Source: a virus | DNA: 42,984 nucleotides | Reading direction: 5' to 3' (one strand) | Virus record (IMG/VR): IMGVR_UViG_3300025641_000016 | Coordinates: 1 to 42,984 of that record | Shown: piece by piece, positions 2,834-18,402 of the stretch | How positions within the stretch are numbered: position 1 is the stretch's first letter | Layout: each line of letters opens with the position of its first letter | Translations under genes and position numbers: made by a program | Notes under the pieces: generated by a model | Database searches by the model: none | Seen by the model: only the letters and a program-made list of their open reading frames with translations | Told to the model about the DNA's origin: nothing

Positions 2834-4510
2834 ATGAGCTTAAATTCATTATTAGAAAGCGCAAACCCATACCAGTCTTTACAGTCTGATGCGGCTAGAT
2901 TATCTAGCAAATGGGAAAAAACAGGTCTTTTAGAAGGTCTAGGTGGTACCCACAAAAACAACATGGGTATGATCCTTGAAAATCAAGCAAAACAACTTGT
3001 AGTTGAAAACTCTAGCACCGGTGGTGGTGGAGGTACATTTGCTTCACAAACTGGAGTTAACAACGGTTCTCAATGGGCTGGAGTTGCTTTACCATTGGTA
3101 AGAAAAGTATTTGGTCAGATTGCAGCGAAAGAATTCGTTAGTGTTCAACCAATGAACTTACCTTCAGGTCTAGTATTTTTCCTAGATTTCCAATACGGAA
3201 GTGATAAAACACCTTTCGAAGCAGGAAAATCTTTATACGGAGAGACGTCAGCAAAAAATAAACCTTTTGGAAATGATACTGAAGGTGGATTATACGGAGC
3301 AGGTCGTTTCGGATACTCTATTAACAACACTTCTTCTATTGTATTAGAATCAGCATACACAGCATTTGATACAGCAACTTGGTCAGATATGGATTTCGAT
3401 TCTACTTACGAAGTAGCTGCTAAAGCTGATGAGTTTTATGCAATTGCAATTCCTACAGCATCTTTAGAATACATAGACAAAGAAGGTGTAGCTGCATTCC
3501 AACTATTTTCAGGATCTTTTACATATGCAGAAAAATCAGGTTCAGGAGCTGGAGATCAATTATCAGCATTTACTAAGTATGAAGGTGGTGCAAATGTTAC
3601 TTTTGTAGTAACTAAATCAGCATTCGCAGATAACCCAGCACAAACAGGATCAGTTACTGTAGTTTACCAACTACAACCACAAGATAATGCAAGAGGTGAT
3701 TTTGAAGACGGAAATTCAATTCCTAATTCTTTAAACAGCCCAGCTATTAATATTCCAGAAATCAATGTACAGATGAAATCATCTGCGATCATTGCTAAAA
3801 CTAGAAAATTGAAAGCAGTATGGACACCAGAATTTGCACAAGATTTAAATGCATACCACGCATTGGATGCAGAAGCTGAATTAACTTCTATCTTAAGTGA
3901 GTATATTTCATTAGAAATTGACTTAGAGATCTTAGGAATGTTGTTAGAAAACGCAGCAGCTGGAAACGAAGTATGGTCTGCAGTTAACAACAGATCTATT
4001 GTAGATAATGGTGCTGACGGTACTGTTACAGACTTAGCATTTTACAATTCTCAAGGACAATGGTTCCAAACATTAGGAACTAAAATCCAAAAGTTAAGTA
4101 ACATTATTCACCAGAAAACATTAAGAGGTGGTGCAAACTTCCTAGTATGTTCTCCATCAGTAGGAACTATCCTAGAATCAATTCCAGGATTTGCAGCTGA
4201 TACAGATGGTGATGCTTCTAAAGCATCTTACGCATTTGGTGTACAGAAAGTAGGTCAATTAAACGGACGTTACAAAGTTTATAAGAACCCATATATGACA
4301 ACTAACAAAGTCCTTTTAGGATTTAGAGGTTCTCAGTTCTTAGAAACTGGTGCAGTATTTGCTCCATACATTCCATTAATTATGACTCCATTAGTATACG
4401 ATCCAAATACCTTCACACCACGTAAAGGTCTATTGACTCGTTATGCTAAGAAAATGGTACGTCCAGAATTTTATGGTACTATCGATATCAATGGTTTAAA
4501 CACTCTATAA
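2834..4510 (+). CDS. 23: Major capsid protein precursor, T4 gp23-like
   Basis: A 558-aa homologue of T4 gp23 (521 aa), the hexamer-forming shell protein. The KLKAVWTPEFAQDLNAYHAL segment and the following DAEAELTSILSEYI (about residues 329-362) are characteristic of gp23, as is the C-terminal YAKKMVRPEFYG. The N-terminal about 60 residues form the expected removable arm. ILE at 47-49 fits the gp21 cleavage rule, though LLE at 32-34 is also possible. Residues about 140-300 contain a variable acidic stretch that may be a surface insertion. It starts 31 bases after the scaffold stop with an A-rich leader and no Shine-Dalgarno, and is followed by a strong terminator. Confidence 0.97.
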   Translation: MSLNSLLESANPYQSLQSDAARLSSKWEKTGLLEGLGGTHKNNMGMILENQAKQLVVENSSTGGGGGTFASQTGVNNGSQWAGVALPLVRKVFGQIAAKEFVSVQPMNLPSGLVFFLDFQYGSDKTPFEAGKSLYGETSAKNKPFGNDTEGGLYGAGRFGYSINNTSSIVLESAYTAFDTATWSDMDFDSTYEVAAKADEFYAIAIPTASLEYIDKEGVAAFQLFSGSFTYAEKSGSGAGDQLSAFTKYEGGANVTFVVTKSAFADNPAQTGSVTVVYQLQPQDNARGDFEDGNSIPNSLNSPAINIPEINVQMKSSAIIAKTRKLKAVWTPEFAQDLNAYHALDAEAELTSILSEYISLEIDLEILGMLLENAAAGNEVWSAVNNRSIVDNGADGTVTDLAFYNSQGQWFQTLGTKIQKLSNIIHQKTLRGGANFLVCSPSVGTILESIPGFAADTDGDASKASYAFGVQKVGQLNGRYKVYKNPYMTTNKVLLGFRGSQFLETGAVFAPYIPLIMTPLVYDPNTFTPRKGLLTRYAKKMVRPEFYGTIDINGLNTL

Positions 4511-14575: not shown

Positions 14576-14845
14576 ATGGAAAATTTAGAATTTATGTTAG
14601 GTGTCCTATCCACAGTAGGTGTATTCTTAGTAGGGTATGCTTCGATAGGGGTATTTAAGGTGAAAGCCAAAGTAAAAGATATTAACCAATCTGTAGATAA
14701 AGCTTATTTAGCTATGGATGAAATAAGCAAAGATCATTATAATAATGTGAATGACTTGCGATTAGATTGCCAAAATCAAATTGATGAACTATATAGACAT
14801 ATAGATTCAAGATTTGATAAGTTTGAAAATAGAATAAATAAATAA
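14576..14845 (+). CDS. Small membrane-anchored coiled-coil protein
   Basis: An 89-aa protein with one hydrophobic helix near the N-terminus (about residues 7-28) followed by a charged helical tail (about 30-89) with N-Q-S-V-D-K and D-E-I-S-K heptads. There is no lipobox or cleavage site, so it is probably an anchored protein with a cytoplasmic or periplasmic stalk. It lies between the tail tube terminator and the gp26-like gene. Function is not recognised; a spanin-like or superinfection role is possible but not supported by a motif. Confidence 0.6.
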   Translation: MENLEFMLGVLSTVGVFLVGYASIGVFKVKAKVKDINQSVDKAYLAMDEISKDHYNNVNDLRLDCQNQIDELYRHIDSRFDKFENRINK

Positions 14846-14918: not shown

Positions 14919-15650
14919 ATGAGTGAATTTAAATTCCCAACCGAAGAGGTTGAATTGCCTTCTAAAGGCCTAATCTATCCAAAAGACCACCCTTTATCTA
15001 GTGGTAAAGTAGAAATTAAATATATGACAGCAAAGGAAGAAGATATCCTTTCTAATCAATCATTTATCCAAAAAGGTAATGTATTGGAAAAATTACTTAG
15101 ATCAGTTATAATAAATAAAGATATTAATGTAGATGATTTAATAGTTGGTGATAAAAATGCATTATTAATTGCTACTCGTATTTTAGGATATGGTAAAGAA
15201 TATGATATAGTAGTAAAGGGTCAAAATTATACTTTAGATATGTCATCTTTAGAAAATAAAGAATTTGATGAGTCTAAATTTGAAGCAGGTAAAAATGAAT
15301 TTAATTTTACAACCCCTTCTACTGGAACTGTTTTAACATACCAACTAGCTACAGGTAAATTAGAAAAACAAATAGACCGAGAGTTAGCAGGTCTTAAAAA
15401 AATTAATAAAGAAAATTCTACAGAGCTTACTACAAGACTAAAATATCTAATAACATCCGTGGATGGTAGTGAAGAAAAAAAAGATATTAGAGACTTTGTA
15501 GATAATATGTTTCTAGCACGGGATTCAAGAGCATTTAGAGACCACGTTGCAGCAACCCAACCAGATGTAAATTTATCATACATTTTGGATAATGGAGAGG
15601 AGGTGACCATTCCAATTGGTCTAAACTTTTTTTGGCCTGACTACAACTAA
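14919..15650 (+). CDS. 26: Baseplate hub/tail-assembly protein, T4 gp26-like
   Basis: A 243-aa protein with the N-terminal signature of the T4 gp26 family: EVELPSKGLIYP followed by the I-K-Y-M-T-A-K-E-E-D-I-L-S segment (about 11-46). It ends I-P-I-G-L-N-F-F-W-P-D-Y-N. In other tailed phages the pair of genes directly before the tape measure encodes the tail-assembly chaperone made in two forms by frameshifting. The position here, before a short second-frame ORF and the tape measure, matches that. The Phe-Phe codons form a seven-T run (15627-15633) where a +1 shift would enter the downstream frame. No Shine-Dalgarno; the ATG follows an A-rich leader. Confidence 0.82.
   Translation: MSEFKFPTEEVELPSKGLIYPKDHPLSSGKVEIKYMTAKEEDILSNQSFIQKGNVLEKLLRSVIINKDINVDDLIVGDKNALLIATRILGYGKEYDIVVKGQNYTLDMSSLENKEFDESKFEAGKNEFNFTTPSTGTVLTYQLATGKLEKQIDRELAGLKKINKENSTELTTRLKYLITSVDGSEEKKDIRDFVDNMFLARDSRAFRDHVAATQPDVNLSYILDNGEEVTIPIGLNFFWPDYN
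15627..15633 (+). promoter_or_regulatory. Putative +1 (or -2) programmed frameshift site, T7 run
   Basis: Seven T's read as TTT-TTT in the gp26-like frame, 15 bases before its stop (15648-15650). The second frame has an in-frame stop at 15622-15624, just upstream of the run, and is then open to 15933. A Phe-tRNA can re-pair perfectly on TTT after a +1 slip. The fused product would be about 337 aa (238 before the slip, 99 after). A homopolymer sequencing error is the alternative. Confidence 0.6.
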
Positions 15651-15741
15651 TGCCCCTGAGGTACGTTTAAATCTTTTTAGAATAATCCACCAATTAGTCT
15701 TCCATGGTAAAGGTGGATATGACTTTAATACCATATATAAT

Positions 15742-15933
15742 ATGCCTATATGGTTAAGGAAATTTACTTATTCTGAAATAAAAGATTTTAACAACGAGGA
15801 AAAGAAAGCCTATGAAAACAACTCCCCAGGGGGTAAAAATCAAAAAAATATGATTAATTCTGATGGTAAAATTAACACACCTGATTTTGCTTCAGCATCT
15901 AAACCCTATAAGGGTAAAACAAGTTATAATTAG
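15742..15933 (+). CDS. Second-frame tail-assembly chaperone segment (gp51-like position)
   Basis: From the first ATG this is a 63-aa protein starting MPIWLRKFTYSEIKDFNNEE. The same frame is open from 15625, and the upstream translation, including RLNLFRIIHQLVFHGKGGYD just before the ATG, looks like conserved protein: in T4-like phages I recall the V-F-x-G-x-G-G-Y and Y-N-M-P-I-W-L-R-R-F segments together. There is no ATG, GTG or TTG between 15625 and 15742. So the real product is probably a frameshift extension of the gp26-like protein rather than a free 63-aa protein. The C-terminal half is Lys/Asn/Gly-rich and likely disordered. The tape measure starts 24 bases later. Confidence 0.65.
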   Translation: MPIWLRKFTYSEIKDFNNEEKKAYENNSPGGKNQKNMINSDGKINTPDFASASKPYKGKTSYN

Positions 15934-15957: not shown

Positions 15958-18402
15958 ATGGCTGGCGAACAACAAGCAAGAAATGCACTTTCATTTAAAG
16001 AATTATTAGAGGAACAAAACCGTCTATTAAAAGAACAGGTACGGATAGAAAACGATCGCCTGAAAATTCAGAAAGATGAACTGGGCATCCAAAATGACAT
16101 TAGTAATGTTATTAAGGATCAAGCAAAAATACTTACTTTTCAAAAAGCTGAAAGATCTGCTATTTTAAGGTCTACTAATTCTATATCTAAATTACAAGAA
16201 TCACTTTCGGTAATGGATCGAAAGGAATTAGGTACTAAAAAAGCACTTAATAAACTAAAAGGTGACCAGTTAAAAGTTGAAAAAAATATAAGGTTACTCC
16301 AATTAACAAGGTCTGGGATTTTAAAAGACCAAACAGGCTTAACTAAAAAGCAAATTGAAGCTAACACAATTTTAGTAGGATCTATTGATGATCAAATTGA
16401 AGGTGCTTTAAAACTTAACCTAGCATTACAAGAAACACAAAATTTATCACAAGTATTATCTAATAATTTTGGTGTTAAAGCCTTTAGCAATTTATCTGAA
16501 GCTGTAAAATCAATACCGGGATTAACAGCATTCTCAGCACCCTTTGAGGCTGCCTCTGAAGCATCCTTAAAAACTTCTCAAGATATAGAAAATTCCCTAA
16601 AAACTGGGAAAGGTTTAACCAAAGATATGGTTAAAAGATTAGGCCTAGAAGATAAATTAAAATCTAAAAGTGGGGAAACATTATCGGGAACATCAGCTGC
16701 TGTTAAGTACAAGAAATTAGGAGCCCCTGATGGTAAGAAATTATTGGGTGTTATTGATAGAAAAGGGTTCATGTCAGCTATGTCTGGTATTAAATCACTA
16801 GGTAAATCCTTAACAACCGCCTTAGCCCCTGCAGCATTGCTTGCAGGCCTACTTAATGCCTTAATAGCATCAGATAAAGCAGCGGGGGATATGGCTAAGA
16901 GTATGAATATGACATACAAAGAAGCTCTTGGCACTCGAGATGAACTCCAACAAATGGCTAACTCTTCATTGGATAATTTTGTTACTTTAAAGGGGATGGA
17001 TGAAACCTACCAATCAATAAATAAAGCATTAGGTACTGGAGTAGATGTTAGTGAGGAAATGTTAACTCAATTTACCCAATTGAGGGAAAGAGCAGGGCTT
17101 ACTAATGAAGAATTACAAGGCATTGCAGCAATTTCATTAACTACCGGTAAATCCGTGAAAGATATTACAGGTGAATTTATGGCCCAGGCTAAATTATCTG
17201 CAATGCAAAATGGTGTTTTATTAAATGAAAAAGATTTAGTAAAAGATATAGGCAAAGTATCTGCAGCAACAACATTATCATTTGGGAAAAACCCAGTATT
17301 AATAGCTGAGGCTGTTGCAACAGCTAAGTCCTTGGGTATGGAATTATCTAAAGTAGACGCTATTGCAAGTAGTTTACTGGATTTTGAATCTTCTATTTCA
17401 AACGAATTAGAAGCAGAACTTTTACTAAATAAAGATTTAAATTTAGAAAAAGCAAGACAAGCAGCTTTAAACAATGATTTAGCTACAGTAGCCAAAGAAA
17501 TTTCAGAACAAGCTGGATCTTCTGCTGAATTTGGTGAAATGAATAGAATACAACAGGAAGCATTAGCTAAATCTGTTGGGATGTCTAGGGAAGATTTAGC
17601 ACAAACTTTATATGTACAAGAACAATTATTAGGGCTTACAGGGGAACAAGCAAAAGCAGAAGAAGCTGCAATAAATAAAAGAATAGCAGCGGTTGGTCTA
17701 GAACAAACACAAAAAGAATTAGCTGAAGGTAGTGTTCAAGATTTAATGGATCAGAATAGTCAAGCCGACAAACTAGCTGCTACTTTATCAAAATTAAACG
17801 AATTATTTGTAATGATAGCTTCACCTATTTTAGCAATAACCGAACATCTTATGCCTATACTAAAAGGTGTTGCGTGGTTAATAGGGGGTATAGGAAAGGT
17901 TGGCGATGGTTTTAAGAGAGCGGGTGAATGGGTAACAGAAATGACAAGTGGTTTAGGATTTTTAGGTAGTATATTACGTGGTATAGCTTACTTAGCAGTA
18001 TTAATATCATCTTACTTTGCATTCCAGGCATTGGCTTGGATACCAGTTGTAGGTCCTCTTTTAGGGGCGGCAGCAGCCGCAACTATTGTTACTGCAGGTT
18101 TTAGTGCTATTAATTCTTCTCCTAAAAAAGTAGGGGATGTGGATTCACCCGCAGATGGTAAAACCATAGTATCAACAAAAGAAGGAGGTATATTTGAAGC
18201 TTCCCCTAACGACGATTTAGTATTAGCCCCAGGAGCCTCTAAAAGGATGCAAAATGGTCAAACAACTCAAATAACCCAAACCGCAGTAGTTGCTGATAAT
18301 AGCAAGATAGAAAAATTATTAAGCGAAATGTTAACGGGTCAAACACAACTAATTAAGAAAACACCAGAAATGGCTCCTTTAGCTATGTACGAAGTACAAT
18401 AG
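15958..18402 (+). CDS. 29: Tail tape measure protein
   Basis: An 814-aa protein with the tape measure architecture. Residues about 1-160 are Lys/Glu/Gln-rich coiled coil. Hydrophobic helices follow near residues 280-300 (A-L-A-P-A-A-L-L-A-G-L-L). Helical repeats fill about 310-610, then a strongly hydrophobic region (about 620-720) that could cross the host membrane. The C-terminal tail contains S-P-A-D-G-K-T-I and S-P-N-D-D-L-V-L-A-P-G-A, similar to tape measure ends. It sets tail length and is ejected with DNA. It is longer than T4 gp29 (590 aa), suggesting a longer tail. It occupies the slot after the tail-assembly chaperone. Confidence 0.9.
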   Translation: MAGEQQARNALSFKELLEEQNRLLKEQVRIENDRLKIQKDELGIQNDISNVIKDQAKILTFQKAERSAILRSTNSISKLQESLSVMDRKELGTKKALNKLKGDQLKVEKNIRLLQLTRSGILKDQTGLTKKQIEANTILVGSIDDQIEGALKLNLALQETQNLSQVLSNNFGVKAFSNLSEAVKSIPGLTAFSAPFEAASEASLKTSQDIENSLKTGKGLTKDMVKRLGLEDKLKSKSGETLSGTSAAVKYKKLGAPDGKKLLGVIDRKGFMSAMSGIKSLGKSLTTALAPAALLAGLLNALIASDKAAGDMAKSMNMTYKEALGTRDELQQMANSSLDNFVTLKGMDETYQSINKALGTGVDVSEEMLTQFTQLRERAGLTNEELQGIAAISLTTGKSVKDITGEFMAQAKLSAMQNGVLLNEKDLVKDIGKVSAATTLSFGKNPVLIAEAVATAKSLGMELSKVDAIASSLLDFESSISNELEAELLLNKDLNLEKARQAALNNDLATVAKEISEQAGSSAEFGEMNRIQQEALAKSVGMSREDLAQTLYVQEQLLGLTGEQAKAEEAAINKRIAAVGLEQTQKELAEGSVQDLMDQNSQADKLAATLSKLNELFVMIASPILAITEHLMPILKGVAWLIGGIGKVGDGFKRAGEWVTEMTSGLGFLGSILRGIAYLAVLISSYFAFQALAWIPVVGPLLGAAAAATIVTAGFSAINSSPKKVGDVDSPADGKTIVSTKEGGIFEASPNDDLVLAPGASKRMQNGQTTQITQTAVVADNSKIEKLLSEMLTGQTQLIKKTPEMAPLAMYEVQ

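Follow-up and report, generated by a model that had tools for sequence, protein, structure and literature searches.

A probable programmed +1 frameshift in a gp26-like tail-assembly chaperone gene upstream of the tape measure

Introduction

In phages lambda (G/GT), P2, SPP1 (17.5/17.5*) and Mu, a tail-assembly chaperone gene lies just before the tape measure gene and gives two products, a short form (N) and an extended form (N+T). Frameshifts of -1, -2 and +1 are on record for such genes (PMC5009743; for SPP1, PMC6316719); lambda and SPP1 shift by -1 and Mu by -2, whereas the one tail chaperone for which +1 is named, and then as very likely, is that of the haloarchaeal myovirus HSTV-2 (PMC5009743). 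Here, we analyzed a 42,984-nucleotide (nt) stretch of viral DNA, IMG/VR record IMGVR_UViG_3300025641_000016 (the window, positions 1 to 42,984), in which a gp26-like gene in the corresponding place very probably yields two tail-assembly chaperones, N and N+T, by a programmed shift of +1.

Two other described systems are close to this locus. T4 has two separate genes, 26 and 51, where the window has one gene with a putative frameshift, and the T4-like gp26/gp51 proteins are described as tail assembly chaperones by Vladimirov et al. 2022 (pmid 34826709), as cited in PMC12846349. PMC12846349 cites earlier work both for a chaperone function of these two T4 proteins and for poly-T signals that direct -1 shifts in T4-like phages, and our idea of T4 gp26/gp51 as an unrecognised G/GT pair was accordingly dropped as a novel one. 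The second system is prfB, the gene of release factor 2 (RF2), where a +1 frameshift moves a P-site CUU or UUU codon onto UUU with help from an upstream Shine-Dalgarno (SD)-like stimulator. Slip codons CUU and UUU before U are found in prfB of Bacteroidia as well (PMC8710568, PMC12421855). As far as sequence features go, the window locus shares this arrangement; it differs in that the A site of prfB holds a stop codon and its SD spacing is ~3 nt, whereas UGG and a spacing of 25-30 nt are found here, with a hairpin in between in many lineages.

Results

Layout of the junction

The junction between the two frames, where the N open reading frame (ORF) reads ...IPIGLN-FFWPDYN*, comprises the following features.

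14919..15650, + strand: 0-frame chaperone gene N (TAC-N / G-like, gp26-like), an ORF of 243 amino acids (aa) with C-terminus ...GEEVTIPIGLNFFWPDYN*
15597..15603, + strand: GAGGAGG, candidate SD-like stimulator, in Gly-Glu-Glu-Val codons, 26 nt from its last base to slip codon 2
15605..15621, + strand: hairpin GACCA-TTCCAAT-TGGTC, 3' of the SD-like element and 5' of the slip site (minimum free energy -6.4; z -3.67 against synonymous shuffles)
15622..15624, + strand: TAA, +1-frame stop directly 5' of the slip site
15627..15635, + strand: putative slip site TTT_TTT_TGG, codon 2 TTT at 15630-15632
15634..15933, + strand: +1-frame C-terminal T domain, beginning GLTTTNAPEVRLNLFRIIHQLVFHGKGGYDFNTIYNMPIWLRKF... 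and ending with TAG at 15931-15933
15648..15650, + strand: TAA stop of the 0 frame, where the short product ends
15958..18402, + strand: tape-measure candidate, the next large ORF (814 aa), its position matching annotated relatives

An earlier sequence-only reading had drawn attention to a T7 run (15627-15633) ahead of the 0-frame stop, a downstream-frame stop before the run, and a second frame open to 15933 whose first ATG lies at 15742 with no earlier ATG, GTG or TTG. All of these coordinates were verified, with two bases separating the stop from the run, and the fusion it expected at about 337 aa agrees with the 337 aa computed for the forward-slip product. Because of the +1-frame TAA, T is inaccessible from upstream in that frame. 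A random frame of the window's composition would stay open for 102 codons with a chance of ~0.0003, and TTTTTTTGGCCT occurs only once in the whole window.

The gene order tube - N - T - tape measure is annotated in Flavobacterium phage immuto, Microcystis phage Mel-JY01, Listeria phage LIS04 and SP-15, and the window is syntenic with it; immuto and LIS04 carry a 'tail tape measure protein' annotation at the position of the 814-aa ORF.

Conservation and selection of the second frame

Profiles of N and of T were run against 80 IMG/VR relatives retrieved by the N protein, 80 by the T domain and 80 by the Microcystis phage protein, together with phage records. At 240 of the 241 viral loci in which both N and T were found, T lay in phase +1; the isolates immuto and Mel-JY01 show the same phase, and so do SP-15, LIS04 and Streptococcus phage GXN1. 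At the sole other locus, L157, the junction is intact and the N gene is interrupted further upstream by an unrelated break; this frame change (L157:2170-2200) falls within an A-rich stretch and is probably an assembly error. Conservation among the relatives begins at the junction (FFGLT), and the 0-frame stop follows the first base of codon 1 by 15-24 nt in 239 of the 240 loci (36 nt in the remaining one). In pairs of close relatives, the ratio of nonsynonymous to synonymous substitution rates (dN/dS) of the T region was 0.15 when read in the +1 frame, against 1.8 for the 0 frame and 1.2 for the -1 frame, indicating that T is under purifying selection in the +1 frame.

As in a G/GT-type gene, the second frame is thus open from the slip site, has no start of its own, and is conserved and selected, the exceptions being contigs L258 (2640-3100) and L262. 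An upstream ATG belonging to T, which the sequence-only reading had named as evidence that would count against a frameshift, was found in these two contigs only: an ATG shortly behind the stop of N gives T a start of its own, and both have a changed slip site (TTC TTG TAT / TTC CTT TGG CCA), which marks them, by their sequences, as natural losses of the frameshift. Current annotation overlooks the long form, as the T part in immuto is entered as a truncated 'hypothetical protein'.

Slip site

Across the 240 loci, the slip site was TTTTTTTGGCCT at 197, TTTCTTTGGCCT at 32, CTTTTTTGGCCT and TTTTTTTACCCT at three each, TTTCTTTACCCT at two, and a single variant at each of the last three. At 239 of these loci, LR756508 being the exception, codon 2 is either TTT or CTT with a T next to it, and it is never TTC, although these genes use TTT and TTC at 841:222. 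The 0-frame stop and the open second frame, whose conservation in homologues had been proposed as a check, were kept; the T7 run as such was not, since 34 loci read TTTCTTT (TTT CTT TGG type) and an additional clade reads TTC TTT TGG with the architecture retained in both. The alignments thus identify [U/C]UU_U, rather than the T7 run, as the conserved element. The GGCCT that follows is accounted for by double coding, being read as Trp-Pro in frame 0 and as Gly-Leu in frame +1.

The TTC TTT TGG clade is the most informative one, as its site is incompatible both with re-pairing two bases back and with slippage at codon 1 and leaves just a codon-2 slip of +1, which favors +1 over both -2 and transcriptional slippage. 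Judged by these variants, a +1 slip at codon 2 is the only model that fits all main clades.

Signals upstream of the slip site

Upstream signals were assessed in 121 representatives by shuffling synonymous codons with the protein left unchanged. Anti-SD pairing 45-15 nt upstream of the site averaged -9.95 kcal/mol, compared with -5.81 kcal/mol expected, and was stronger than in the shuffles in 91% of representatives; over 37 clusters (65% identity) the effect was z -2.02 (p 6.5e-9), with control windows at ~0. In the window, the GAGGAGG duplex with the anti-SD reaches -12.3 kcal/mol. None of its 35 gene starts has a strong SD, the leaders being A-rich, and among relatives a strong SD occurs at 7% of N-gene starts versus 89% of frameshift sites.

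The last 30 nt before the site also fold more stably than expected under synonymous shuffling (-5.15 versus -3.25; over the 37 clusters z -1.17, p 5e-7, control windows ~0), and 78 of the 121 representatives have a structure at least as stable as -3 kcal/mol at the hairpin position. The hairpin arms covary: exchanging arms between sequences was destabilizing, with z -8.3 overall and p 0.001 in each of three subsets, while five of six control regions gave nothing and one gave z -3.0. Both the SD-like element and the hairpin, neither of which figured in the sequence-only reading, therefore exceed what the protein demands, pointing to selection on the RNA itself. A downstream stimulator was sought as well; there was no signal in the near regions and a weaker one over 15-75 nt (z -4.1). 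An Rfam search returned no match.

Proposed mechanism

Comparison among relatives supports the conserved architecture and selection on T, on the SD-like element and on the hairpin; from these we infer that the shift occurs, its direction and rate, the action of its stimulators and the chaperone role, as follows. Most ribosomes would terminate at 15648 to give the 243-aa short form N, and a minority would slip one base forward at TTT_TTT_TGG. The P-site peptidyl-tRNA on codon 2 (UUU; CUU in some relatives) would re-pair with the overlapping UUU (15631-15633) before UGG is read, making GGC (15634-15636) the next codon, so that reading continues as Gly-Leu-Thr in the +1 frame to the 337-aa N+T. 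The likely stimulators are GAGGAGG, through base pairing with the 3' end of 16S rRNA, and, in many lineages, the hairpin, which probably leaves the mRNA behind the P site with a crowded or shorter path. If the proteins act as lambda gpG/gpGT do, N may coat the tape measure and T may recruit tail-tube subunits, with the ratio of short to long form being important.

The models predict distinct junction peptides. In immuto, a codon-2 +1 slip would give VSFLGLTPEYR, a codon-1 slip VSFFGLTPEYR and a -2 shift VSFLFGLTPEYR; for the window phage, the junction would lie in the GluC peptide VTIPIGLNFFGLTTTNAPE under +1 and in an FFF version of it under -2.

Several observations weigh against this account. 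The A-site UGG is a sense codon and does not by itself account for the pause required for +1 slippage. The SD-like element mostly lies 25-30 nt before the slip codon, versus 3 nt in prfB; the hairpin is weak or absent in about one third of representatives, and only one of six further contigs beat its shuffles. Of the 240 loci, 237 have TTT as codon 1, beyond the need of a codon-2 slip, and LR756508 (TTT CTA TTC) is compatible with +1 at codon 1 only; codon-1 slippage is possible in some lineages. Lastly, the separate ATG of T in L258 and L262 implies that a fused T is dispensable in some places.

Alternative explanations

The best surviving alternative is a -2 programmed frameshift as in Mu (PMC5009743), in which the P-site tRNA moves back two bases on the T run and one extra Phe is incorporated. 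It leads to the same final frame, is workable on T7 and on CTT TTT TGG, and would demand exactly the TTT seen so persistently at codon 1. Re-pairing two bases back nevertheless fails in the TTC TTT TGG clade, where the tRNA would land on UCU; in the TTT CTT TGG relatives it would meet UUC and mismatch at the first position, and GXN1 has no workable -2 pairing. We consider it unlikely. The sequence-only reading had left +1 and -2 side by side; comparison strongly supports a shift into the +1 phase, and with these clades -2 becomes the less likely route.

Still less likely is that T is made as a separate protein, from a non-AUG start or by coupled re-initiation, with no fusion. The T ORFs of L258 and L262, and an ATG near the N stop in some -1-type relatives (described below), show how this could look; however, 118 of 241 loci have no ATG, GTG or TTG before the conserved core, and where a start codon does exist it is usually upstream of the slip site within the N-coding overlap. 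The +1-frame stop directly before the site in the window, the onset of conservation at the junction, and the placement of the SD-like element 5' of both the hairpin and this stop also speak against such a start. An independent T start was rejected for the main group, while being real in L258 and L262.

Slightly less probable again is transcriptional slippage, whereby RNA polymerase would drop or add a U on T7 and some mRNA would carry the fused frame. The homopolymer is present in the window and most relatives, but the 34 TTTCTTT loci and the TTCTTTT clade have the same architecture and no long homopolymer, and an SD-like element and RNA hairpin point to ribosomes. A sequencing or assembly error (e.g., a true run of six Ts, homopolymers being error-prone) or a recent loss-of-function indel is refuted by conservation, as the same phase recurs at 240 loci in independent assemblies and in the isolate genomes of immuto and Mel-JY01 with T under purifying selection.

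Protein family and relation to T4 and -1 systems

N matched phrog_150 ('baseplate hub', 5.9e-8), and 33 of 45 aligned relatives matched Pfam PF12322 (T4_baseplate; best 2e-15), the window protein itself having no match within E 0.1; by these profiles the N domain belongs to the T4 gp26/gp51 family (PF12322, phrog_150). An AlphaFold2 model of the N domain had a mean predicted local distance difference test score (pLDDT) of 92, and Foldseek placed baseplate hub assembly proteins of SP-15 and of T4-like phages among the best viral matches to this predicted structure. Against PDB, the HK97 chaperone 2ob9 ranked third without significance (E 0.97, probability 0.35), and PDB sequence searches found nothing significant. 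T alone had no Pfam or PHROGs match, and a model of the fusion made without an alignment was unusable (pLDDT 33).

Profile comparisons place the +1 fusions in line, through T, with cyanophage-type -1 fusions (E 9e-23), which are in turn colinear with T4 gp51 (E 4.6e-21) and, in their N part, with gp26. T matched cyanophage T at 3.5e-6 and cyanophage T matched gp51 at 1.9e-5, compared with 0.29 for T against gp51 directly. While T4 thus shares the N family, the link between gp51 and window-type T runs via cyanophage sequences, direct profile matches being unconvincing.

At the same place, T TTT TTC with a related T in the -1 frame is found in cyanophages S-CAM22, S-RIM14, S-CAM3 and S-CRM01, Vibrio phage 1.081.O, Agrobacterium phage Atu_ph07 and Pseudomonas phage PA5oct; the corresponding sequence is T TTT TTG in Rhizobium phage Y68 and T TTT TTT in Stenotrophomonas phage RAS14. 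Because one homologous spot carries a probable +1 site in the window, -1 sites in cyanophages and jumbo phages, and a pair of genes in T4, the evolution of recoding direction becomes testable.

In comparison with lambda-type systems, the window locus has another protein family, a YUU_UGG slip site and an upstream SD-like element plus hairpin. Within the literature searched, which left most subscription papers outside, three features are new: a probable shift by +1 in this protein family, a slip site of the form YUU_UGG, and an upstream signal that combines an SD-like element with a hairpin. We tentatively suggest, as a possibility somewhat short of even, that together they form a new +1 signal layout (i.e., a strong SD-like element 25-30 nt upstream, a covarying hairpin behind the ribosome, a YUU_U slip codon and an A-site sense codon) that, in at least Bacteroidota-like phages, acts on ribosomes whose anti-SD is largely occluded for initiation.

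Host

The host probably belongs to the Bacteroidota: relatives fall into bins labelled Flavobacteriaceae, Flavobacteriales, Winogradskyella, Saprospiraceae and Sphingobacteriales, although some were also seen in two archaeal bins resembling misbinning. In Flavobacterium johnsoniae the anti-SD is occluded, yet prfB retains a perfect SD-like signal, AGGAGGUAUCUU_UGA (PMC8710568). A conserved SD-like stimulator in phages with SD-less gene starts raises the question of how such ribosomes free their anti-SD during elongation.

Additional observations

Among the numbered loci, -1-type T TTT TTC is carried by L286, L289, L290 and L291 (cyanophages), by L292, and by L270 and L271 (jumbo phages); their records annotate T (phrog_634) as a separate ORF, often truncated. 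L293 has T TTT TTG and L272 has T TTT TTT. The jumbo phage LR756511 (L086, near 3600-3930) likewise has T TTT TTC with a T-like domain in the -1 frame. In the window, an 89-aa ORF (14576-14845), for which family searches (Pfam/PHROGs) gave no convincing match, has a hydrophobic N-terminal stretch and sits between the tube-like and chaperone genes.
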